Source of the DNA: Sulfurovum sp.
GTDB lineage: Bacteria > Campylobacterota > Campylobacteria > Campylobacterales > Sulfurovaceae
Reading direction: 5' to 3'
Assembly (NCBI GenBank): GCA_012329065.1
Contig: JAAXPZ010000052.1
Location: 1-33,039 of the forward strand
DNA: 33,039 nt
A program made the position numbers and the translations under genes. Each line of letters opens with the position of its first letter. Within the stretch, counting starts at the first letter, position 1. The notes below the pieces were generated by a model. The model worked only from the letters and a program-made list of their open reading frames with translations. It was not told where the DNA came from and made no database searches. Of this stretch, positions 1,872 to 30,869 are shown one piece after another.

Positions 1872-3455
1872 TTATCTATTTATTGCTTTTAGTGCAGCTA
1901 GCAAATACTTTGGGTTATGAGCAGAGTCATACATAGGGTGTACTTCTTTGTCTGACGCAAACAGTCTATAAACTGCCATTTGTGCTGTACGTACTGAGTA
2001 CTCTACTGTAAAGACACAATCTTTTGGGGCTTCTGCAAACTGACCTAAGAAGGCAAAGTTTGTTGCATTTTTGGGTATGACTTCTGGTCTGTCACCTAGT
2101 GTACGAGGCATGAAGAGAGAGTCTACAAAAGGCATGGCCACTGGGATGCAGTTTACTTTTCCTGCTTCGGTTATGGGTTTCATAAGGTCTTGGATTTTGA
2201 GATGATAGTACAACTCTTCTAGCATCTCTGCACCTGTGCATTCAGCCATAGGTTTTTTGATGTGGTTTCCTACTCTGTCTGGGTAGAGTCCATAGCCCCA
2301 AAATATCTTTACACCTTTGGGTTGAGTGGGGAAGTGAGGTTGACGGGCTATGACTATAGACATGAGCCAGTTGGAGTCTGTCATGGTGACTAGTCCTCCT
2401 GTACCGTCTACATTGCCAGAGAAGTTTTCCATGTAGTCATGGAAAGTGCTGTCGTTTATAGTAGCGGTAAAAGAGTACCACTTTTGTAAGTCTATGTTGT
2501 CACAAAAAGGAGAGGGGTTTCCAAAAGTTGGGTCTTTTTGAGCAAGTTTTTTCCATAGTTTCCATGAGCCTGATTCTGCTATGCCTTTGAGTTTAGCAGG
2601 TGTGTCCCACGAGCCGTTGTCTGTACTTTCTGTGATGGAGCCGTTAGTGAAAAATACATAGTCATTTTCACCCAAAGAGATACTGCTTCCATCTTTCATA
2701 TGTAAGGCTGTTGCAGTTTTGGCATTAGCGTTTAAGTCAAAATCTATATCTATAACTTCTTTACCCATTTCAAATGTGACACCTTTTGCCTCGAGGTACC
2801 TTTTCATGGGTCTTACTACGGAGTCGTACTGGTTGTACTTGGTACGCATGACCCCGCCTAGTTCATATAGACCATCTACTAGGTGTATAAAACGTTTCAT
2901 GTAGCGACGCATCTCAGCCAGTGAAGACCAGCGTTGGAAGGCAAACATAGATGTCCAAATGTACCAAAAGTTCGTTTCAAAAAAGTCTGCATCAAACCAG
3001 TCTTCTATGCGGTCATTGCCTAGAGACTCTTCTGAGACAAAGGTAAGTTTGAGAAAGTCAGCCTGTTGTGAAAAGGACAGTCCATAAGAACTCACATCTA
3101 TTTTTTCACCATTTTTTAAGAGTCTTGCTTGACCTTTAGAGACAAAACGTTCATTAAATTCATAAGACTCATCACGCACAGAAACATCTGGGTTTTCAAG
3201 AGAGGGGATATGAGAGAGAAGCTCCCAGTAACACTCATAATGCATCTCGTGCATACGCCCACCACGCACTACATACCCTTTGTCTATGTCGCCAGCACCA
3301 TCTAAAGCTCCACCTAAAATATGGTCTTTTTCTAAGATGATGATGTTTTCTGCCTGCAGGGCAGTGTCTTTTTCTAAATATACAGCTGATGCAAGAGAGG
3401 ATATACCTGAGCCTATAAGATATACTTTTGAGTTACTTTGATTTTCTGTTTTCAT
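1872..3455 (-). CDS. ohyA: Oleate hydratase (FAD-dependent fatty acid hydratase)
   Basis: A 527-residue enzyme of the former myosin-cross-reactive antigen family. It adds water to the cis-9 double bond of unsaturated fatty acids to give 10-hydroxy fatty acids; FAD is a structural cofactor. An N-terminal Rossmann motif (LIGSGISSLASA, residues 13-24) is followed by LEKDHILGGALDG and the family signature region VVRGGRMHEMHYECYWELL near residue 62-80. In most members the signature reads RGGREM and its glutamate is catalytic; here the equivalent residue is M68. The protein is a little shorter than typical members (about 560-590). An AGGA ribosome site precedes the ATG at 3455. It is first in a leftward group with a YcgJ-like and a GlsB-like gene, which suggests a membrane-lipid or fatty-acid stress role. 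Confidence 0.9.
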   Translation of the reverse strand: MKTENQSNSKVYLIGSGISSLASAVYLEKDTALQAENIIILEKDHILGGALDGAGDIDKGYVVRGGRMHEMHYECYWELLSHIPSLENPDVSVRDESYEFNERFVSKGQARLLKNGEKIDVSSYGLSFSQQADFLKLTFVSEESLGNDRIEDWFDADFFETNFWYIWTSMFAFQRWSSLAEMRRYMKRFIHLVDGLYELGGVMRTKYNQYDSVVRPMKRYLEAKGVTFEMGKEVIDIDFDLNANAKTATALHMKDGSSISLGENDYVFFTNGSITESTDNGSWDTPAKLKGIAESGSWKLWKKLAQKDPTFGNPSPFCDNIDLQKWYSFTATINDSTFHDYMENFSGNVDGTGGLVTMTDSNWLMSIVIARQPHFPTQPKGVKIFWGYGLYPDRVGNHIKKPMAECTGAEMLEELYYHLKIQDLMKPITEAGKVNCIPVAMPFVDSLFMPRTLGDRPEVIPKNATNFAFLGQFAEAPKDCVFTVEYSVRTAQMAVYRLFASDKEVHPMYDSAHNPKYLLAALKAINR

Positions 3456-12837: not shown

Positions 12838-13212
12838 CTATTCTGGATATTCAATGGGCAGTAAATCTTGCGCCTCTTCTCCAGTAAATAGCCTTGAGAT
12901 TGCCATAAATCGAAATCCAAGAGGTATTTCTAGAGAGAAACTGGAGCCTCTTCCCTCTGTGATATCTATGGTTGTGTGAGTATTTTTTGTATATTCGAAC
13001 TGATCTTCTGCCATATAATATGGACAGCCATGAATCTCTCCTATTTTTATATCCCTACTTCCTAGTAGCATGTCACCTTTTGCAAAACACATAGGGGCAG
13101 ATCCATCACAACATCCGCCACTTTGGTGAAAAATCAATTCTCCATGCTTTTTGCGGAGTCTATCGATTAAGTCCTTGGCTTTATCTGTGACAGCTACTCT
13201 GTTATACGCCAT
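12838..13212 (-). CDS. DUF779 family protein, aldehyde dehydrogenase partner
   Basis: A 124-residue protein of the DUF779 family. The characteristic FHQSGGCCDGSAPMCF (residues 28-43) has three cysteines suited to metal or redox chemistry, followed by the typical GCPYYMAEDQFEYTKNTHTTIDITEGRGSSFSLE. DUF779 genes are known to accompany acetaldehyde-type aldehyde dehydrogenase genes, as here. The biochemical role is unknown. Its ATG overlaps the stop of the dehydrogenase gene by one base (TAATG), so translation is coupled. Confidence 0.85.
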   Translation of the reverse strand: MAYNRVAVTDKAKDLIDRLRKKHGELIFHQSGGCCDGSAPMCFAKGDMLLGSRDIKIGEIHGCPYYMAEDQFEYTKNTHTTIDITEGRGSSFSLEIPLGFRFMAISRLFTGEEAQDLLPIEYPE

Positions 13213-14708
13213 TAAAAGAACCCTAAGGCATTTTTATCAAATGATTGTAGTATATTTTTAGTATGACGATAGTTGTTAAGCATCATCATGTGAGTCTCTC
13301 TCCCGATACCTGATTTTTTGTAGCCTCCAAATGATGCATGTGATGGATATAGATGGTAGCAGTTTGCCCATATTCTGCCCGCTTCAATACCTCTAGACAT
13401 CTTATGTAGTTGGTGTACATCTCTTGACCATACGCCAGCTCCTAGCCCGTATAGTGTATCATTGGCGATCTCGAGTGCCTCATCTTCATCTTTGAATGTA
13501 GCGACACTCAGTACTGGACCAAATATCTCTTCTTGAAATATACGCATTTTATTGTGTCCTTTAAACACTGTCGGCTTGACATAAAAACCATCAGGGTGAG
13601 CGGGATTTTCAAACTTATCACCACCTATAAGTAGCTCTGCACCCTCTTGTTTGCCTATATCTATATAGTGCAGTATTTTTTCAAACTGATCTTTTGAGGC
13701 TTGAGCACCCATCATTGTATCGGTCTCCATAGGGTCACCAAGTTTGATTGCTTCTATTCTTTTGAGGCACTTTTCCATAAATTTATCATAGATGCTTTCT
13801 TGGATAAGAGCTCTTGATGGGCATGTGCAGACTTCACCTTGATTGAATGCGAACAACACAAGTCCCTCTATTGTTTTATCCAAGAATGCGTCATCTTTAT
13901 CCATGACGCTTTCGAAAAAGACATTTGGAGATTTACCCCCAAGTTCCAATGTCACTGGTATGATATTCTCAGCAGCATACTGCATGATGAGTCTTCCTGT
14001 CGTGGTCTCTCCTGTGAAGCCCACTTTTCTGATATTGGGGTGAGTTGCTAGTGGCTTACCCGCTTCAGGTCCAAATCCATTGACTATGTTAATTACACCT
14101 GCGGGGACTACATCTTTGATTAGCTCTGCCCACTCCATAACGGATACTGGTGTTTGTTCTGCTGGCTTGAGCACCACCGCGTTACCCGCTGCGATAGCAG
14201 GTGCTACCTTCCATGCCATCATCAGTAATGGAAAATTCCATGGTATGATTTGTGCAACAACTCCAAGCGGCTCATGTACCTCCATGGATACAGTGTTCGA
14301 ATCTAAGTCAGTGATACTTCCTGATTCTGCACGAATCACACTGGCAAAGTATCTAAAGTGATCTATCGCTAGTGGCAAATCGGCATTTAGAGTTTCCCTA
14401 ACTGCTTTTCCATTATCCCAAGACTCTATTACTGCTAGTTTTTCAAGATTTGCCTCCATCACATCTGCAATTTTGCTTAGCACCGCACTTCTCTCTGTGG
14501 TTGAAGTTTTGCCCCAGCTTTCAAAAGCTTGCCAGCCAGCCTCAACTGCGAGCTCAATATCTTTACGATTTGATTGGGCTATCATGCCCATAGATTTATT
14601 GTCAATCGGAGAAGTATTTTCAAAATAATTACCATCTGTGGGTGAAATCCACTCACCAGCTATGAAATTATCGTATTTCTCTTTAAATATCGGTCTTTCA
14701 TATGTCAT
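13212..14708 (-). CDS. NAD(P)-dependent aldehyde dehydrogenase (acetaldehyde/AldB type)
   Basis: A 498-residue enzyme oxidising aldehydes to acids. Active-site residues are present: N158 in IIPWNFPLLM, the general base E255 in TLELGGKSPN, and the nucleophile C294 in NQGEVCTCPSRAL. FTGETTTG near residue 231 is the nucleotide-binding loop. The close YHLYPSHASFGGYKKSGIGRE ending and a DUF779 partner point to the AldB/ExaC group acting on acetaldehyde and similar short aldehydes. AGGATAAATT before the ATG at 14708 is a good ribosome site. The gene is the first of a leftward pair, with its promoter in the 200-base gap shared with moeA. Confidence 0.92.
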   Translation of the reverse strand: MTYERPIFKEKYDNFIAGEWISPTDGNYFENTSPIDNKSMGMIAQSNRKDIELAVEAGWQAFESWGKTSTTERSAVLSKIADVMEANLEKLAVIESWDNGKAVRETLNADLPLAIDHFRYFASVIRAESGSITDLDSNTVSMEVHEPLGVVAQIIPWNFPLLMMAWKVAPAIAAGNAVVLKPAEQTPVSVMEWAELIKDVVPAGVINIVNGFGPEAGKPLATHPNIRKVGFTGETTTGRLIMQYAAENIIPVTLELGGKSPNVFFESVMDKDDAFLDKTIEGLVLFAFNQGEVCTCPSRALIQESIYDKFMEKCLKRIEAIKLGDPMETDTMMGAQASKDQFEKILHYIDIGKQEGAELLIGGDKFENPAHPDGFYVKPTVFKGHNKMRIFQEEIFGPVLSVATFKDEDEALEIANDTLYGLGAGVWSRDVHQLHKMSRGIEAGRIWANCYHLYPSHASFGGYKKSGIGRETHMMMLNNYRHTKNILQSFDKNALGFF

Positions 14709-16120: not shown

Positions 16121-16134
16121 GGCATAAAGATATC

Positions 16135-16162
16135 CAGATAGTCAGCAAATACCAACTATCTG
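16135..16162. terminator. Bidirectional hairpin between moeA and sodN
   Basis: CAGATAGT (16135-16142) and ACTATCTG (16155-16162) form a perfect 8-bp stem with a 12-base loop, placed 14 bases after moeA and 12 bases before the end of the convergent sodN gene. Position and symmetry fit a terminator shared by both genes; T runs are weak. Confidence 0.6.
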
Positions 16163-16173
16163 ATTAGTATTAA

Positions 16174-16617
16174 TTATTTGTAGTAAGCAGAGAGAGCTTC
16201 TACACTTTTTCTTAGTGCTTCGACATAAGAGGCATCTGCATGTTGCTTAGCCTGCATAGCCGCAATAATGACTGCATGGTGTTTTGCTAATCGTTCAGCA
16301 TAGTCTTTTTGGCTTGGTTTTACGCGTTGTGTCAAAAAATAGTCAGAGATTGTAGAGATAATCTTTTGTGAGTGCTGCTCTTTGTTTGTCACCCATCTAA
16401 CTATTTGATTGAGGGATTGTGCATCTTTTTTCCCTGCAAGCTCATTGATCAGTTTTATGGATTTCTCCACGGTTGTAACATCTTCAAGCATAGCTTTCAC
16501 TCGGGCAGCATCGTCATATATACCGCATGGAATCTGGCAGTGTGCAGATATTTGCATAGGCAACAAAAGCCCTAGACCTAAAAACATTGCGACAATGAAT
16601 TTTTTTGTTCGTATCAT
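16174..16617 (-). CDS. sodN: Periplasmic nickel superoxide dismutase
   Basis: A 147-residue protein that converts superoxide to oxygen and hydrogen peroxide at a nickel site. A classic Sec signal peptide (MIRTKKFIVAMFLGLGLLLP then MQISA) is followed at once by HCQIPCGIYDD, the nickel hook: H26, C27 and C31 become His1, Cys2 and Cys6 after cleavage behind A25. The 122-residue mature part is close to the 117 residues of Streptomyces NiSOD. The four-helix body is visible, with WVTNKEQHSQKI near its middle. No SodX-type peptidase gene is adjacent, so signal peptidase I probably makes the free N-terminus. AGGAG precedes the ATG. Confidence 0.9.
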   Translation of the reverse strand: MIRTKKFIVAMFLGLGLLLPMQISAHCQIPCGIYDDAARVKAMLEDVTTVEKSIKLINELAGKKDAQSLNQIVRWVTNKEQHSQKIISTISDYFLTQRVKPSQKDYAERLAKHHAVIIAAMQAKQHADASYVEALRKSVEALSAYYK

Positions 16618-16647
16618 AGTACATCTCCTTGTTTATGTGATGTAATT

Positions 16648-16718: not shown

Positions 16719-17282
16719 TTATGCTTTTTTAGCAAAACTCTTAAGTATAAGTGAAATAATTATAACTTCTAAACATAATAATAAAAAATGTAAATAGTAG
16801 ACTTTTTCCTGATTTTCTATAATATTCCACTGTTCGATAATCTTATAGAATACCCATGAACCTCCCATGCCTATAAGATATCCGAGTTGCTTGGCAGTAT
16901 CTAGGGAGGTCAACAGGATGTCTTTTTGTATTATAAGAGTTTCAGCTCGAATTAAATAGGAGCCAAAAACAAATGTGATCTGGTAGCCTGCATAGACCAG
17001 TAGGGCTGTCTGATAAGTATATGGAAACAGAAGGAAGTATATAATTGCCCCCATTAGCACCAGTTCCACGAGTAGACTTATACGATAAAACCATGGGATA
17101 TTCAATATATGATGGTATAGCCGTGCGACTACCAGCATCCCTACGGCGAGGGCTATACCGCCTACAGAGTAGAGAGATGGTTTGAGTGGGCCATAAATGG
17201 TAAATATCGCTCCCACACTCAAGCCTAAAAATAGGGAATTGAAAAATTTATATCGTATAAACCAATCGATATTTAGTGTCAT
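16719..17282 (-). CDS. Six-helix inner-membrane protein, MFS-like half
   Basis: A 187-residue, very hydrophobic protein with about six membrane helices and few charged loops. The segment near residues 120-150 (ILLTSLDTAKQLGYLIGMGG) is amphipathic and could be a cytoplasmic loop leading to a transport-type helix. Its size and layout suggest half of a major-facilitator-type carrier, but no diagnostic motif is present. The start at 17282 is chosen because GGAG lies just upstream, rather than an ATG seven codons further up. It follows the TonB-dependent receptor gene on the same strand, separated by a hairpin, so a functional link to uptake is possible but unproven. Confidence 0.55.
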   Translation of the reverse strand: MTLNIDWFIRYKFFNSLFLGLSVGAIFTIYGPLKPSLYSVGGIALAVGMLVVARLYHHILNIPWFYRISLLVELVLMGAIIYFLLFPYTYQTALLVYAGYQITFVFGSYLIRAETLIIQKDILLTSLDTAKQLGYLIGMGGSWVFYKIIEQWNIIENQEKVYYLHFLLLCLEVIIISLILKSFAKKA

Positions 17283-17344
17283 AAAAACTCCTGTTGGATG
17301 CATGTTATTCTGAATTAGATTCGGGAACCAAGTGTCTATGAATA

Positions 17345-17373: not shown

Positions 17374-19227
17374 TTAAAATCTATATTCTATTGTAGCATA
17401 TATGCTCCTACCCTCTGTACTGTAACTTTTGACAGTTTCGTATTTTTTGTCAAAGATATTTTTTGCAGCCACTGAGAGCTTGAAGTTGTCACTTAGTTTT
17501 GTACTGTATGTCAGGTCAGCAGTAGTGTAGCTGTCAAGCGTGGTATCTGTTGCAGGAAAAACACTATAGTCAAGATCCCTTCGTTTCCCCGCATAGTTGG
17601 CTACAATCCCTATATGTGTATCCTCTGCAAAATAGTAGTCAAGATATACAGTTATGCTGTTTTTAGGGATTCTTTGCATGTCTTTGCCATTATCGTCTTG
17701 GAAATCTATCATATGTGTCAAAGAAGCACCAGCTACAAATCCACTCTCTCCAAAGCTATATTCTCCATTAAGCTCTACTCCTGTGATTTTGACTCCATCA
17801 CCGTTATTGAAATAGCTTGTGCTAAAAGTAGCAGGGTCATATTTGGAGTCTATCTTATTCTTTATTTTGTTACTAAAATAGCTAATATTTAGTAGTTTTT
17901 TATACCCAAAGGAGAGTTCATATCCTTGAATGCTCTCTGGCTTGAGTGTGCTTATAGAATTGCTAAACTGAAACAAGCTTGGAGCCTTGTAGCCAGTGTA
18001 AATATTGATAGAACCATGAAGTCCATCTATGGCTATGCATTCTCTTTTGATGCCAAATCTATAGGTAGTTTTGTTTTCAAATTTGTCAAAACGGTCATAT
18101 CTTAGTGTAGCGTTAAAAGTAGTTTTGGCTCCTAAGATCTGATCTACTGTATGTGTGTAGTTGGCATATGTAGCAGTGTTTTTGAATGACTCATTAGAAG
18201 TGGTAGCTCCGTTGTCTGTATTAGCTTTGTTGATGCTGTGTTCAGTGCCTACTGAGAGCGATTGTAAAGGTGAAAAATCATAATTACTGACTATAGAATA
18301 GTTTGTATTTGAGCCATCTGTATCGTAGCTCCATGGTCCCCAAGCACCAGAGCCTTCTAGCTGTCTTTTGATATCTCTACGACTTATTTTTGCATTGACA
18401 CTAAGAGTATCTTTTTTGTATTTGTATGTGAAAGTAAATATTTTTTGATCACTGTCACCTTTGGAGATATTATCATCCGCATTGCTAGGGCCATCAAAGT
18501 CATATGTACCATTATAGCTATGAAAAAACAATGAAGCACTGCCATAGTTGCCTATTTTTAGGGATGCTTTTATGTTTATATTTTTATTTCTGTAGCTATC
18601 TTGTTCTGCATCAGATGGCAGTATGGCAGAGATACTGTCTGTATCGAGAAGATTCCCAGCAATATAGATAGAACCGTCACCAAAAATTTTAGAGAGTGTA
18701 AAGCCGATAGCTTTTGTGCCATAAGATCCAGCCTTTAGTTTGATACTTCCTTTATCTTTGATTCCGTCTTTAGTTATGATATTTACTGTACCTGCTGCTG
18801 CTCCAGCCCCCCATATGCCACTTTGAGCACCTTTGACTACTTCTATTCTCTGGATAGAATCAATAGATATATGCTCCAGCGATGAAGCTACAGATGGTTG
18901 TGTATAGTCGGTCAATGCTACGCCATCTAACAATATTAAAAGATTATCACTTTTTAATCCTCTGATAAATATAGAGCTTGTCTGTCCTGCTCCTCCATTT
19001 GATGCAAAAGAAAACCCCGCTATACGACTCAATGCTTCTGATACACTCTGGTATCCTCGCTCTTCAATCTCCTCATTTGTAATAACAGTGACATTTGCTG
19101 TAGTTTTACTGATATTTTGCGGCAACTTTGTAGTAGATGTTACAAGCACTTCTGCTAGCTCTATCTCTGCAAGTATAGGACTTGAGATTAGGGTGGCTAT
19201 AGTGACGCTATATATTATTTTTTTCAT
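17374..19227 (-). CDS. TonB-dependent outer-membrane receptor (BtuB-like)
   Basis: A 617-residue receptor. Signal peptide MKKIIYSVTIATLISSPILA; a TonB-box-like EVLVTST follows near residues 26-32. The plug domain (about 40-155) shows VTVITNEEIEERGYQSVSEA, SIFIRGLKSDNLLILLDGV, and RIEVVKGAQSGIWGAGAAAG with TVNIIT. The rest forms a 22-strand barrel and ends YATIEYRF with the terminal phenylalanine required for assembly. The length and plug are closest to vitamin B12 or small siderophore receptors (BtuB type); the ligand cannot be read. GGAATAAA precedes the ATG. No ABC transporter or TonB genes are adjacent. Confidence 0.9.
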   Translation of the reverse strand: MKKIIYSVTIATLISSPILAEIELAEVLVTSTTKLPQNISKTTANVTVITNEEIEERGYQSVSEALSRIAGFSFASNGGAGQTSSIFIRGLKSDNLLILLDGVALTDYTQPSVASSLEHISIDSIQRIEVVKGAQSGIWGAGAAAGTVNIITKDGIKDKGSIKLKAGSYGTKAIGFTLSKIFGDGSIYIAGNLLDTDSISAILPSDAEQDSYRNKNINIKASLKIGNYGSASLFFHSYNGTYDFDGPSNADDNISKGDSDQKIFTFTYKYKKDTLSVNAKISRRDIKRQLEGSGAWGPWSYDTDGSNTNYSIVSNYDFSPLQSLSVGTEHSINKANTDNGATTSNESFKNTATYANYTHTVDQILGAKTTFNATLRYDRFDKFENKTTYRFGIKRECIAIDGLHGSINIYTGYKAPSLFQFSNSISTLKPESIQGYELSFGYKKLLNISYFSNKIKNKIDSKYDPATFSTSYFNNGDGVKITGVELNGEYSFGESGFVAGASLTHMIDFQDDNGKDMQRIPKNSITVYLDYYFAEDTHIGIVANYAGKRRDLDYSVFPATDTTLDSYTTADLTYSTKLSDNFKLSVAAKNIFDKKYETVKSYSTEGRSIYATIEYRF

Positions 19228-23741: not shown

Positions 23742-25628
23742 CTATTTTACTATCAGTGTAGCTTCTGTATCACTGCTTAATGTCAAATTTATATTTATGT
23801 CACCAGTCAAATCTTCGCCAATCTTGTAGTAGTAGTTTCCTTGAGCTTTGACAGTCCCTTGTATCGTTTTGATTGAAGGCGGGGGATCGTAGTTGAAAAA
23901 GTTTATAGAGCCTAGTTGATAAGTGCTGTTGCCGTAGGCATTTTCTGTGAAATCTCCAGTATTGTATGTAGGTATATTCTGTAGATTTTCATTGTCAGAT
24001 AGTAGTATAGCAATACCCCATTCCCTAAGTAAATCATCGAAGTTTTTTCCTGTGCCATGTACAGATTTCTGGGTAGCGTAAATGATGGCATCTTCATGTT
24101 TTTTACTATTATGCATGATATCTCGCAGAACCTTTGCTCCGCCATAATTTCTTGTTAGGAATGTACCAAATGCATTTACTTTGGAGTAGTCAGATAGGTT
24201 ATTGTTCCAAGCAGTAAGAGAAGATGTGCCATCTTGATTGAAGAGAGAATATCTACCTTGTATATTGCCAACACTTCCAGCGCTTCCATCAGTATGTTCT
24301 ACACCTCTTGGTCCAGCATGTCGAATCTTAGTAGCGATAAGATCTTCTGTAGCTTCTGCTATCATTTCAGCTATCCATACATCATGCCCAGTGTCTTTTA
24401 AGACCATCTTTTGATAAAATTCAATCATATGAACAAACTCATGTGCAAGTGTTGAATAAATCTCTTTTTGCCAGTAGTCACCATCTTCTTCATTGGCAAA
24501 CATCACAGAGTCTATGTAAAACATAATTCTTTTATTGGATCCACTTGTGTCAATATAGTTGTCTTTGCCGTAGAAGTATCCTATGATACCACCATCTGCC
24601 CTATTATCATTGTCTATATCTGTCACAAGAATAGTAACCTCATTATTTTCTGAGATAAGGTTACTAAATTTGATTTTAGCATTAGCTCCCCATTCTTCGC
24701 CAAAAATATTTGTTACCCAGTCGTATATGTCATTATCATTTCCTGTTTTTAGAAAAGTATCAGCAAGACTATCAACCATTTGCTGTGTCACACATTTTGC
24801 CTTACTGCATCCTGCTCCAAAGCTATCGTTTGATACCCAGACATTAAGTGTTTTTGAGCCGTGAACTGTAGAGATATTGGAAACTATTTTTCTAGCTGTT
24901 GCAGTTGTATGCCTGCTTGTGTCAGATTCTAGATAAAAGATTTTTGTATTGCCTACAGTATCGTTTCTTCGTTCAGGTATTGTTTGAAATACTTTGGAGC
25001 TCTTGTTTTGATATCTTTTTATTAGCTTACTAGCATCCCTGTTAAATTTTGATATACGACTTGGCGCATGGAAGATTTTTGGTCTTTGGTTGTTTTGTAT
25101 TGTGGTTAGTTTCTTTTTTGTCGACTGCACGATTTTTGCATTGTGGGAAATAGTAGGATTAGAGTTTTGTGATTTGTGATAGTTGCTTAAAAGTACATAT
25201 AGACTTTTAGGGGTTGTTCCTATTTTAATCATCTTTTGTATATTGCCACTCTTTCCGAGTTGTCCTACATGGTAGTCATCACTGATATGGATAATTTCTA
25301 CTTTGTTTTCTGGATCATTTGGCTGACTATCGATTCCATCTATGATTCCATCGCCATCACTATCTTTTTTCCAATCTTCAATATCAGAACTACCTATTAT
25401 TTTTATGTAATTATTCATTTTGTCTATATTACTACTAGTTACTGACATGATACCTGCATCATGATAATCACCAACAGTAGGCTCTGTATTTGAGTTGCCA
25501 GTGGCATAGCCAGTGATCTTTGCTATGGCGATCTCTTTGCCGCTAAGTCCGCTGCTACCTCCACTGCCACAACCAATAAGTACAAACATAGTAAATACAA
25601 TAGAAAAATATTTAAACCTAAAAGTCAT
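23742..25628 (-). CDS. Lipoprotein zinc metallopeptidase, M30 (hyicolysin)-like
   Basis: A 628-residue surface or periplasmic lipoprotein. Signal and lipobox LIGC (C20) are followed by a serine/glycine linker. DSDGDGIIDGIDSQPNDPEN (about residues 89-108) is a calcium-binding thrombospondin-3-like motif. The zinc site is TLAHEFVHMIEFYQK with H396, E397 and H400, and WIAEMIAEATEDL downstream supplies the likely third ligand E421. This layout matches M30-type peptidases. The start at 25628 is favoured over an ATG 12 codons upstream because AGGACTTTG precedes it and the signal begins there. It forms a unit with the small lipoprotein downstream. Confidence 0.75.
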   Translation of the reverse strand: MTFRFKYFSIVFTMFVLIGCGSGGSSGLSGKEIAIAKITGYATGNSNTEPTVGDYHDAGIMSVTSSNIDKMNNYIKIIGSSDIEDWKKDSDGDGIIDGIDSQPNDPENKVEIIHISDDYHVGQLGKSGNIQKMIKIGTTPKSLYVLLSNYHKSQNSNPTISHNAKIVQSTKKKLTTIQNNQRPKIFHAPSRISKFNRDASKLIKRYQNKSSKVFQTIPERRNDTVGNTKIFYLESDTSRHTTATARKIVSNISTVHGSKTLNVWVSNDSFGAGCSKAKCVTQQMVDSLADTFLKTGNDNDIYDWVTNIFGEEWGANAKIKFSNLISENNEVTILVTDIDNDNRADGGIIGYFYGKDNYIDTSGSNKRIMFYIDSVMFANEEDGDYWQKEIYSTLAHEFVHMIEFYQKMVLKDTGHDVWIAEMIAEATEDLIATKIRHAGPRGVEHTDGSAGSVGNIQGRYSLFNQDGTSSLTAWNNNLSDYSKVNAFGTFLTRNYGGAKVLRDIMHNSKKHEDAIIYATQKSVHGTGKNFDDLLREWGIAILLSDNENLQNIPTYNTGDFTENAYGNSTYQLGSINFFNYDPPPSIKTIQGTVKAQGNYYYKIGEDLTGDININLTLSSDTEATLIVK

Positions 25629-25735
25629 CAAAGTCCTTTGTGCTCCATAAAAATTATGTCGCAAGCATAATCAATAATTGTGAATTGAGTGTATTGTATC
25701 AAAAAATAATAAGTAAAATGTCAAGAGTGCATAAG

Positions 25736-27191: not shown

Positions 27192-28164
27192 GGTAACTTT
27201 GCAACCTTATCAGTATCCCGTATAGCAGACTTTCCTTGTCTATACTGCCACCTTTTTTGAGTCGCAATTCAGACTCTAGCAGGTGTTCGTATATCTTTAG
27301 TAGTGAAGCAGTTTTTACTTTGAGTGCTAGTTGGGCTTTTTGTTGCTCTATATGTTTGGGTAATTTGTAGCCTAATATGGCTTTGGAGTCTGGTTGTCCA
27401 TGTATGCGAATGTAGGCATGAAACAGAAAGAGTTGATTGACAAAAAATTGAGTAGAACGCAAGATAGAGTACTCATCCTCTCCTAGCTCTAGAAGTTTGG
27501 AGATGGTATCTATCACTGGCTTTTTGGCAAAAAGATCGAGCAGTAATTGTTCCATCGCCAAAGGTGCTGTGGAGTAAACTAGTCTATCTATGTCTTTGCT
27601 TTGAATTTTGGTGTCCAATATAGCTAACTTATGTAGCTCATTATTACAAAGAGCAAGGTTGTTGTTGAGTATAGTCATGAGGTGAGATAGGGCATAGTGA
27701 TCGATATCGAGCCCGATCGTCTGTGCTTTTTGCTGAAGTACAGCGATACCCTCACTGATATTCGCCTCAAAAAACCGTACCCAAACCCCACCTTTTTTGT
27801 CTGCAAAGGCTGCCTGCATAGAGCGTGCATCTTTGGCTGCACCTGCGTACCCATAGATGAAGTAATTGTCAGGATTTTTGTTTGCCAATGTTACAAGCAC
27901 ATCTAGTTCTTTTTTAGGTATTTTCTTTTCACGCTTCACTACCACAAGATTTGTACCACCAAACAAAGATGTCTGAGAAAGAAAAGCCTTAGCCTGCTCA
28001 AAATTCCACTCATCATGGTAAAGTGAAAGCATACTGTCTTTAGCATTGGTCTTTTTGATGTACATATCTATGTAATGGTCTACTAGGTAGTCATTTTCAC
28101 CATAGAGCAGTACGGCCTTCGGAAAAGCTTGTTTTAATTTTTGGTCAAATTCTCTTTGGTACAT
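27187..28164 (-). CDS. holA: DNA polymerase III delta subunit
   Basis: A 325-residue clamp-loader subunit that opens the beta sliding clamp. The N-terminal LLYGENDYLVDHYIDMYIKK and central YFIYGYAGAAKDARSMQAAF are typical of campylobacterotal HolA, as is the C-terminal helical domain with LALCNNELHKLAIL and SLLYGILIRLQSYL. The ATG at 28164 overlaps the stop of the degenerate methyltransferase gene by one base (TAATG), and no independent Shine-Dalgarno site is evident, so translation appears to be coupled to that gene. holA is essential in bacteria where tested. Confidence 0.88.
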   Translation of the reverse strand: MYQREFDQKLKQAFPKAVLLYGENDYLVDHYIDMYIKKTNAKDSMLSLYHDEWNFEQAKAFLSQTSLFGGTNLVVVKREKKIPKKELDVLVTLANKNPDNYFIYGYAGAAKDARSMQAAFADKKGGVWVRFFEANISEGIAVLQQKAQTIGLDIDHYALSHLMTILNNNLALCNNELHKLAILDTKIQSKDIDRLVYSTAPLAMEQLLLDLFAKKPVIDTISKLLELGEDEYSILRSTQFFVNQLFLFHAYIRIHGQPDSKAILGYKLPKHIEQQKAQLALKVKTASLLKIYEHLLESELRLKKGGSIDKESLLYGILIRLQSYL

Positions 28165-28805
28165 TAAGATGCTACCTTGATGTCTTGTACAGATGCTAAT
28201 CCTAAACTTTTCATGTCTTCCATAATCTTTTGTGCAAGGTAATAACCTCCTGCTTGTATCGTAAATGATGGTTCATCCCAAGAGCGTACACGATTTCGTG
28301 ACATAAACATACTAGAAAATGTTCCTATGACATATTCATGGTTAGCCAATGCACAACTTTCTCCATTAGTATAGTTTTTTTCTTTTGCAGCTAGTGCTGA
28401 GTCTTTTATATCCCAAATCACATCCCTTAAGTATCGCTTATTCTCAAAGCCTGTTGGGAATTCAAACTCCATGTTTAAGTCATCTCTATAACCTATAAAA
28501 AATATTCTTTTTCTATCTTGAGGTACCTTGAAGTCATGGGCATTGAGCATTTTAAATGATAATTTGTATCCTGCTTCACTCCAACTTTGGCATGGAGGCC
28601 CACCGATGATACCAAGTGTTTCTGGTATTTCACTAGAGGGTATTTTAGTAATGCTTCGTCTGTCTAGTTTGGTATGGGGAAAGTTTTTTTCATAAGTTTC
28701 CCAAATGTTTTTGTCGTATTCATTTGCCCAGGTAGTATTAAACCCAGCCTTTTTAAAACCTAAGTCTAAGCCACCTGCACCTGAGAAAAGAGAGATGATG
28801 TTCAT
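28164..28805 (-). pseudogene. Degenerate C5-cytosine methyltransferase with two in-frame internal deletions
   Basis: The 213-residue frame has motif I ([12 protein letters not shown], residues 6-17), the nucleophile loop [12 protein letters not shown] with C72 (motif IV), motif VIII ([14 protein letters not shown], 94-107) and motif IX ([13 protein letters not shown], 175-187). The segment from motif V to VII, including ENV, is missing between G79 and Y80. The segment leading to the GN of motif X is missing between G187 and Y188, where the usual C-terminal helix [11 protein letters not shown] resumes. About 60 and 90 residues are lost relative to a normal 330-350 residue enzyme (estimate). 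It cannot be catalytic. Its ATG and stop each overlap neighbours by one base. Confidence 0.85.
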
Positions 28806-29929
28806 TATGAATTTTCCAATTGAAAAATAAAGTTTTCATAACTGTCTGATTTTGCAAAATTCATATCATATTCTGTATTGCTTATTTTATCAATTCTTAC
28901 AGAGTCAATACCATATTTTAGAAAAGTATCATTTGTAATAAGTTCACCTTCTTTTAGTTTTAAAATATCACGAAGTAACCACTTTCCTAAAGCTTTATTT
29001 GGATTTGACATTAAGGCTTTAGAGCGAGATTGACATAATTTAGCTTGTAGTTTTGTCTTATCAGGTAGGTTTAACGTAAAGTTAATATTTTTTGGTGGAA
29101 AAAAGTGAGGTTTCAATCGATGGAATTTTATAGGTACAGGTATATAAACTTCATCTATATCTCTTGTTCTTCCATTTGCGCTCCACTGATTAAGTCCACT
29201 ATTGTTATATACTTTATGTTTACTGCCATACAAGGGGAGATACGCAGTATCAAGAATACGAGCTTGTGTCATTATTGATTGATTAGAATTAATTAATGAA
29301 TAAAGAGCCTCTAGTGGATCTTCAATAATATTAACATCAAATTCATCTAAAAATTTTAAAGTATTAAACCTTTTCATTAATGTACTTTTTGACAGTGAAA
29401 AGGAGTACTCATGTAAGCCATCATCAAAAGAAATTGAAGATTTTTTTTGTTTAATATTTTTTATAGATTCTAAACAAATTTTATTAGTTTCTTCTTCGTA
29501 AATGAAAAATTTTCCACTATCACGAACTACACAATGATAGATTGATTTTTCTATATCAAATACGTTATTAATAAAGGATAATCGTCCATTTCTTAATTCT
29601 GCAATTTTATGTATTTTTTTTGAAAGAGATAAGTTGTCATAGAGTACTTTGTCTTTATTGAATTCTGCAATTTTTTGAATACTTTTGTCATTTTGACGTA
29701 AATATGTTTTTAGACCTATGCCTAAATTGTCTTTTTGTGCGTCATATGAAACATCACCTCTTGATAAGTCAGATGCATCAAAGGCTTTACAAAACATCTT
29801 TTCAGCAATTCTATAATATAAATATGGCGTATTCGAATCGGAGAATAAATTTGATAAACTACCTATTATTTGTAAGTATTCTTTGTATAGATTTTGATTA
29901 TGTACGGATTGTATATTATAAAAAGACAT
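28805..29929 (-). CDS. Type II restriction endonuclease with B3-like DNA-binding region
   Basis: A 374-residue protein. An N-terminal segment has D59 and D63 followed by GIGLKTYL with K74 ([19 protein letters not shown]), which fits a nuclease core of PD-(D/E)xK type, then a KIAEFN motif at 86-91. Residues from about 240 contain [20 protein letters not shown] (244-263), [35 protein letters not shown] and KWLLRDIL...GIDSVRI. These match my recollection of the B3-like DNA-binding domain of NgoFVII-type restriction enzymes. It lies seven bases after an intact C5 methyltransferase and overlaps the degenerate one, a typical R-M layout. Target sequence not deduced. Base composition is more AT-rich than its neighbours. 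Confidence 0.72.
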
Positions 29930-29936
29930 AAAATTT

Positions 29937-30869
29937 TTAATCCAGTACTTTTTTTATTTCTAATGCAATAGCTTCAATTACAGGAACAGTTACAGAGTTT
30001 CCAACTTGTTTATATAGAGCAGAATTTGCTAATTTTTCAGGAAATTTAAAGGTATTAGGAAAGCCTTGAAATCTTGCACATTCACGTGGTGTAAGTTTAC
30101 GAATATCTTTTTTATCTATTATTAGTGGTACATTGTGTCCACCAGTTCCCATATTTGCTGTGAGAGTGGGACATAATTTACTTTTATTTTCTCTTACATA
30201 GACTCTACGCCACTGATACACAGTGTCTTTATTTTGCATTTCTTCTTTTAGTTGTCCATAATATTTGCTTTTTGTGTAATAAAATTTTTCATCAGCAGTA
30301 TCATCAAACAAGTCTGTAACCTTTTTGGTTAATTTTTTCTCTTTTGGAAAAGTAAATTTTGATGCAGTATTTTTATCTTTAAATGCTACTAAATAAATAC
30401 GTTCTCTATTTTGAGGCACACCACCATATTCACATGAGTTTAAAACTTTGTGTTTAACAGTATATTGTCGCACATCTTCTAGTTCATATAAAATACGTTC
30501 AAATGTTTTACCTTTATCATGTCCTACAAGGTTTTTCACATTTTCTAAAAAAACTACTTGTGGCTGTAATTCATCAATAAAATCTAAAATTCTAAAAAAG
30601 ACATTTCCTCTGTCATCTCTAAAACCTTTTTGATACCCAGCAATAGAAAATGCTTGACAAGGAAAACCTCCCGTTAAAATGTCTATCTTTTCAACTTCGC
30701 TTGGTTGTAAATCATTTAAATCTTTTTCAAAGAGTGTATGTTTGTGATTATGTCTATAGGTGATACAAGCATTTTTGTCTATTTCATTTGCCCAAGAAAT
30801 ATTAAATCCAGCGTTTTTAAAACCAAGTTCTATACCACCAATACCCGCGAATAATCCGCCAACTTTCAT
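29937..30869 (-). CDS. DNA (cytosine-5) methyltransferase, intact
   Basis: A 310-residue enzyme methylating cytosine C5 in DNA. All motifs are present in order: I LFAGIGGIELGF (6-17), IV GGFPCQAFSIAG with nucleophile C71, VI ENVKN with E109, VIII PQNRERIYLVAF (152-163), a target-recognition region about 165-220, IX CPTLTANMGTGGHNVPLI (233-250), and X YKQVGNSVTVPVIEA (286-300). GGGG precedes the ATG at 30869. It heads the R-M cassette, upstream of the endonuclease, with its own promoter. It presumably protects the host and is the only working methyltransferase left in the cassette. Confidence 0.93.
   Translation of the reverse strand: MKVGGLFAGIGGIELGFKNAGFNISWANEIDKNACITYRHNHKHTLFEKDLNDLQPSEVEKIDILTGGFPCQAFSIAGYQKGFRDDRGNVFFRILDFIDELQPQVVFLENVKNLVGHDKGKTFERILYELEDVRQYTVKHKVLNSCEYGGVPQNRERIYLVAFKDKNTASKFTFPKEKKLTKKVTDLFDDTADEKFYYTKSKYYGQLKEEMQNKDTVYQWRRVYVRENKSKLCPTLTANMGTGGHNVPLIIDKKDIRKLTPRECARFQGFPNTFKFPEKLANSALYKQVGNSVTVPVIEAIALEIKKVLD

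Follow-up and report, generated by a model that had tools for sequence, protein, structure and literature searches.

The closest described systems are the SodX-processed nickel superoxide dismutases (NiSODs) of Streptomyces (PDB 1T6U, 1Q0D) and cyanobacteria, with which the protein reported here has in common an HCxxPCxxY hook, a four-helix bundle and a need for a free His1. PMC8346466 reports sodN from 1,464 species, planctomycetes and verrucomicrobia among them. For cyanobacteria it locates NiSOD in the cytoplasm, and it suggests that strains without sodX may not use NiSOD. A signal-peptide NiSOD as such is already in print: the accessible portion of PMC12537917 (Nat Commun 2025) gives the signal peptide of the Roseiconus lacunae NiSOD as ending in ...ASA with the His appended, and a search with this signal peptide plus His returned many NiSODs. 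The R. lacunae protein (WP_230780104.1) is likewise a PF09055 member with a signal peptide before the His, but it comes from a planctomycete and, in that portion of the paper, serves only as search bait, with SodX left unmentioned. Periplasmic CuZn-SOD (SodC), which is unrelated in fold and metal, would serve the same purpose in the same compartment. Dupont et al. 2008 is said to be the main sodN survey. It lay outside the literature covered, in which no paper devoted to exported NiSODs was found; we therefore make no claim that this class is new to the literature, and only its class-wide separation from SodX-type enzymes and its His-rich C-terminal tail are possibly new.

The protein considered here is encoded in a 33,039-nucleotide stretch of DNA from Sulfurovum sp. 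(contig JAAXPZ010000052.1; the window). Compared with the Streptomyces and cyanobacterial NiSODs, it has a Sec leader and not a short propeptide, has no sodX beside its gene, carries Q3 instead of D3 and one extra residue after the hook, and shows about 13% identity to them in structural alignment.

Gene, leader and predicted fold

The sodN-like gene lies at 16174..16617 on the minus strand and encodes a nickel superoxide dismutase, very probably exported, of 147 aa plus a stop codon. Its ATG start is preceded at a distance of 7 nt by a Shine-Dalgarno-like AAGGAG (16625..16630, minus strand), and the translated product begins MIRTKKFIVAMFLGLGLLLPMQISA and continues with HCQIPCGIYDD. Pfam Sod_Ni (PF09055) matches residues 23-146 at 1.6e-37 and 129.3 bits (cut-off 25), so the open reading frame is not a product of chance. 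A terminator-like stem-loop just 3' of the stop codon (16134..16163, minus strand) is weak, with two terminator-like sites observed in the scanned region against 2.2 expected, and promoter-like sites are no more frequent than in shuffled sequence.

Residues 1-25 (16543..16617, minus strand) form a predicted Sec signal peptide that reads MIRTKK, then FIVAMFLGLGLLLP, then MQISA. The n-region MIRTKK is positive, the 11-residue Kyte-Doolittle mean peaks at 2.69, and the leader ends with S-A at -2/-1 and I at -3, with QISA abutting HCQIPCGIY without a spacer. By the (-3,-1) rule and hydropathy, the sequence features of a Sec and signal peptidase I substrate are present; inspection of the leader found neither a twin arginine nor a lipobox Cys at +1. 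The cut site was predicted from the (-3,-1) rule together with conservation across relatives, which points to cleavage exactly at His26. Such a cut would leave the nickel hook HCQIPCGIY (H1, C2, C6; 16516..16542, minus strand) at the mature end of the protein with a free N-terminus. The first-pass annotation, made from the letters of the window, had proposed a Sec-exported NiSOD at this place without stating a strand. The frame proves to be the exact ORF of a Sod_Ni protein on the minus strand, the His is residue 26 of the precursor as had been said, and export by Sec is supported both by this typical signal peptide and by the leaders of all exported relatives described below.

The predicted mature enzyme of 122 aa (16177..16542, minus strand) was modelled with AlphaFold2 as a four-helix bundle at a mean pLDDT of 93.7 and a pTM of 0.85, with low confidence at the hook. 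The top PDB rows in VIA-align are NiSOD chains (Z 14.6-14.8 over 104-108 residues, 1.6-2.1 A), with the best at Z 14.8 and an rmsd of 2.1 over 108 residues; the next family, FliS, reaches 12.3, and helical bundles generally score high. Foldseek also ranked NiSOD first on the model (E 0.02, probability 1.00). Three features of the Sod_Ni superfamily are present together, namely a profile score above the cut-off, the His1/Cys2/Cys6 hook and the predicted four-helix bundle. A single-sequence search of solved structures with the window protein gave no match at E 0.01, and a profile of 63 mature relatives reaches the Streptomyces NiSOD only at E 0.11. The protein is not filed as TIGR02753 sodN because it scores 50.3 bits against an equivalog cut-off of 90. 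To assign it activity and metal is thus a long extrapolation, since its TIGR02753 score falls below the cut-off and solved NiSODs are reached by sequence only at E values of at least 0.11.

Two NiSOD classes and their distribution

A total of 162 distinct NiSODs was compared, with identical mature sequences merged and near relatives not independent of each other. Classes were set by mature residue 3, with Q or E defining class E (131/162) and D defining class C (31/162), and leaders and sodX neighbours were scored afterwards. Four matches were left out: L013, which is below the Pfam cut-off and has no hook, L231 (hit G966), which has no hook by pattern, and two partial matches at contig ends (G995:C490 and G1032:C317). 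For L067 the start was taken too short, and a longer frame exists. A hydrophobic leader occurs in all 131 class-E proteins (11-residue mean 1.7-3.7) and in none of the 31 class-C proteins (maximum 1.39), and the first eight residues are net positive in 127 of the 131 class-E proteins. Class-C leaders are short, non-hydrophobic propeptides of 9-20 residues (31/31), in which -3 is always A or V and -1 always A. A sodX-like ORF adjoins 30 of the 31 class-C genes, the lone exception lying at a contig end, and none of the 131 class-E genes. The window protein departs from the SodX system on both counts, with no adjacent sodX and a 25-residue leader whose hydropathy of 2.69 compares with 1.39 or less.

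One branch divides class E from class C with an SH-aLRT value of 99 in a tree made without the nine hook residues, although the tree was made quickly from 122 columns, has long branches and counts near relatives many times. H1, C2, P5 and C6 are 100% conserved in both classes (131 proteins in class E, 31 in class C), where R49 and K54 are invariant too. Class E alone has an extra residue after the hook, a nearly invariant R14 and invariant Q46, W50, Y68, Q72, Y81 and H89; Arg47 of the Streptomyces NiSOD chain aligns with His57 of class E.

We consider it probable, at roughly 0.8, that the window protein is a periplasmic NiSOD of a widespread exported class. Its precursor would be exported by Sec, and the signal peptidase LepB would cut after QISA to free His1, which would form the nickel hook with Cys2 and Cys6. 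The enzyme would acquire its nickel outside the cytoplasm and remove superoxide there, alongside and independently of a second NiSOD of the same genome that has a 9-residue propeptide and a SodX-like peptidase. The sequences and their comparison show that the protein belongs to the NiSODs, that it carries a signal peptide, that the cut site is conserved and that SodX is absent both beside the gene and from most exported-only genomes. The conserved site makes cleavage at His26 probable, and the hook and fold suggest nickel as the metal and activity in the periplasm. The invariance of the three hook ligands, P5, R49 and K54 in both classes argues against the main alternative, in which the protein is exported but its hook holds another metal (e.g., copper) or serves periplasmic metal binding, and is not a NiSOD. 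NiSODs are also the best solved matches of the model, and the genome has no other periplasmic SOD of the CuZn type. This alternative is unlikely but deserves some weight, because class E differs from characterised NiSODs (Q/E3 instead of D3, the extra post-hook residue and His57 at Arg47), the window protein falls under the sodN equivalog cut-off, and secreted proteins of other families with an N-terminal His bind Ni or Cu according to the accessible portion of PMC12537917.

The exported form also occurs beyond the window's genome. Sod_Ni matches are present in 9 of 150 sampled genomes of the window's own family, one of them below the cut-off and without a hook. Five of the eight genomes with a real NiSOD have the exported form, and all five also have the short-propeptide kind. 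A phylum sample has Sod_Ni in 5 of 397 genomes, including the window's own; the NiSODs of the remaining four belong to the short-propeptide kind. An alignment of five exported proteins was used to scan the genomes of 84,980 species, and the best 80 of at least 565 stretches come, judged by record title, from Campylobacterota, Desulfobacterota, gamma- and alphaproteobacteria, Neomarinimicrobiota, Verrucomicrobiota and others. Two further samples were not chosen by pattern, with their phylum names inferred from the titles of the centre-genome records: Sod_Ni occurs in 20 of 395 Desulfobacterota genomes, with the exported form in 19 of the 20, and in 46 of 294 Planctomycetota genomes, with the exported form in 33 of 47 proteins read. 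The exported NiSOD is the commonest form in these two samples and not an oddity, and the window NiSOD adds another member to an exported class that is widespread but has been little studied.

Other superoxide dismutases were counted in the same samples. CuZn-SOD is absent from all 150 sampled genomes of the window's own family. Replacement of SodC by the exported NiSOD was considered, and the comparison is uninformative (SodC in 0/20 Desulfobacterota with NiSOD and 4/60 without). Fe/Mn-SOD occurs in 0 of 8 own-family genomes with a hook-bearing NiSOD compared to 41 of 142 others, a difference that is suggestive and not significant (about 0.07, one-sided).

Maturation with and without SodX

A second Sod_Ni gene (G000:C25:22403-22789) lies on contig 25 of the window's genome, which spans 1.94 Mb in 82 contigs and is listed as 100% complete. 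Its 156-aa product shares the fold family and hook ligands of the window protein and differs in having a 9-residue propeptide (MFKIEEVKA), the hook sequence HCDVPCGIYDP and a sodX-like neighbour. This neighbour, a 92-aa ORF that starts directly behind the gene, gives a weak match (33.8 bits) to the NiSOD maturation protease model and also matches Pfam S26/S24. Its S11 and K51 are invariant among its relatives, and we take them to be the Ser and Lys expected of an S26 catalytic dyad. The second NiSOD is presumably cytosolic and matured by this SodX-like peptidase, and both NiSOD systems, exported and SodX-type, are present side by side in one organism. The genome also encodes the signal peptidase I LepB (L005:862-1824, 320 aa, Peptidase_S26 109.5 bits), and neither Fe/Mn-SOD nor CuZn-SOD gave a match in it. 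The first-pass annotation was right that no sodX adjoins the window NiSOD gene, which has moeA on one side and the gene for a 194-aa membrane protein on the other. It missed the second NiSOD, beside which the genome search for sodX found one.

Maturation of exported NiSODs was compared across 50 genomes, reached through 50 of the 80 exported loci, which were hand-picked with near-duplicates and some others omitted and which include several metagenome bins. The exported protein is the sole NiSOD in 42 of them; the remaining eight have a second NiSOD, and in all eight the NiSOD maturation protease model has a match directly behind it. With a profile made from 15 SodX proteins, those eight genomes and the window's genome score 59-134 bits, values that are circular in that some of the profile's sequences came from these nine positives. 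The absence of SodX from the 42 exported-only genomes is informative: the scores there are at most 45 bits and always fall in frames of at least 145 aa. These 42 include the isolates Desulfogranum mediterraneum, Ferrimonas futtsuensis, F. kyonanensis, F. senticii, Desulfospira joergensenii, Cerasicoccus arenae and Desulfosarcina alkanivorans. Because 42 of the 50 genomes have no SodX-like match, signal peptidase alone would suffice for the exported form, and its maturation in this way is well supported by the gene content. The same 42 genomes, which have neither another NiSOD nor a SodX-like match, lend weight to the earlier suggestion that no dedicated protease is involved. They also make it highly improbable that the SodX beside the second NiSOD processes the exported protein too, whether in the cytoplasm or during export. 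The sodX-like gene is present in the genome, and the A/V at -3 and A at -1 that end class-C propeptides mean that the two proteases may share specificity, but the window protein has a full signal peptide, unlike the short propeptides of class C.

The position of the cut is also conserved. The -3/-1 rule holds at the hook in 127 of the 131 class-E proteins and in 48 of the 52 that lie outside the pattern scan; in the 80-locus set, Ala at -1 was built into one of the two search patterns, so its rows are biased for Ala. When -1 is restricted to A, G or S, the rule holds at the hook in 47 of the 52 proteins outside the pattern scan, compared to at most 22 of 52 at other offsets from -8 to +8. Exposure of His1 by signal peptidase, as first proposed, is supported for the 127 and not for four exceptions (L223, L224, L227 and L228), all planctomycete. 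These have plausible signal-peptidase sites, picked by eye, at 3-10 residues before the His and no sodX-like ORF beside the gene, which would imply a second cut or trimming, or an N-terminus other than His. It is very improbable that the leader stays uncut and holds the protein in the inner membrane with His1 unexposed. The leader is hydrophobic enough for a membrane span, but this reading is opposed by the 48/52 and 47/52 counts and by the pointlessness of conserving a hook without a free N-terminus.

Periplasmic maturation by signal peptidase raises the question of how a thiolate site acquires nickel in a compartment that is oxidising and may turn Cys2 and Cys6 into a disulfide. Of the 131 exported proteins, 85 have at least two His residues past the last conserved residue, as against none of the 31 class-C proteins. 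The exported tails often end in PEHKH, and His makes up 24% of tail residues versus 3% of the core (examples are L020, L027, L034, L076, L202 and L208). Their composition suggests that the tail is possibly a nickel-collecting element. The window protein has no His tail and ends ...SAYYK right at the last conserved residue. A broader scenario, which we put forward tentatively and with some doubt, is that exported NiSODs are a separate lineage in which all metal maturation occurs outside the cytoplasm and signal peptidase is the sole maturation protease. The HKH-type tail would gather periplasmic nickel in place of a cytosolic chaperone, the planctomycete branch would add a second cut, and the window protein would have lost the tail and would rely on free periplasmic nickel. 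If exported NiSODs do mature without SodX, a plain export signal has taken the place of a dedicated protease, many genomes annotated as having NiSOD without a maturase have a functional periplasmic SOD, and inferring from a missing sodX that NiSOD is unused would be wrong for the exported class.

Surroundings of the gene in the window

The gene for the 194-aa membrane protein (16719..17303, minus strand), which has no Pfam or NCBIfam match, lies 101 nt upstream of the NiSOD gene and sits between it and a TonB-dependent receptor gene (17374..19227, minus strand). The receptor is nearest to the BtuB (vitamin B12) type, with 256.6 bits for TIGR01779 against a cut-off of 599.7. Both are possible operon partners and could be on one transcript with the NiSOD gene, which moeA adjoins convergently on its other side. 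In the other Sulfurovum-type loci that were read, neither of them adjoins the exported gene. A conserved operon with a nickel transporter or peptidase was sought and rejected: neighbours vary among exported loci, and those that recur do so only in a few related genomes. A plasmid or phage origin was likewise rejected, with no phage match and two plasmid records, both at less than 60% identity.

Several other genes on the minus strand of the window were observed. A full-length MCRA family protein (680.8 bits) is encoded at 1872-3455; this family is known for oleate hydratases. An aldehyde dehydrogenase gene followed by one for a DUF779 protein occupies 12838-14708. A 640-aa protein at 23742-25664 has a lipoprotein-like leader (IGCGS), a Peptidase M30 domain and an HEFVH zinc-site motif. 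The segment at 28164-30869 is a type II restriction-modification locus in which two C5 cytosine methyltransferase genes, one full-length (310 aa) and one of 213 aa that is matched in two pieces, flank the gene for a 374-aa protein whose C-terminal domain is of the NgoFVII restriction enzyme type.
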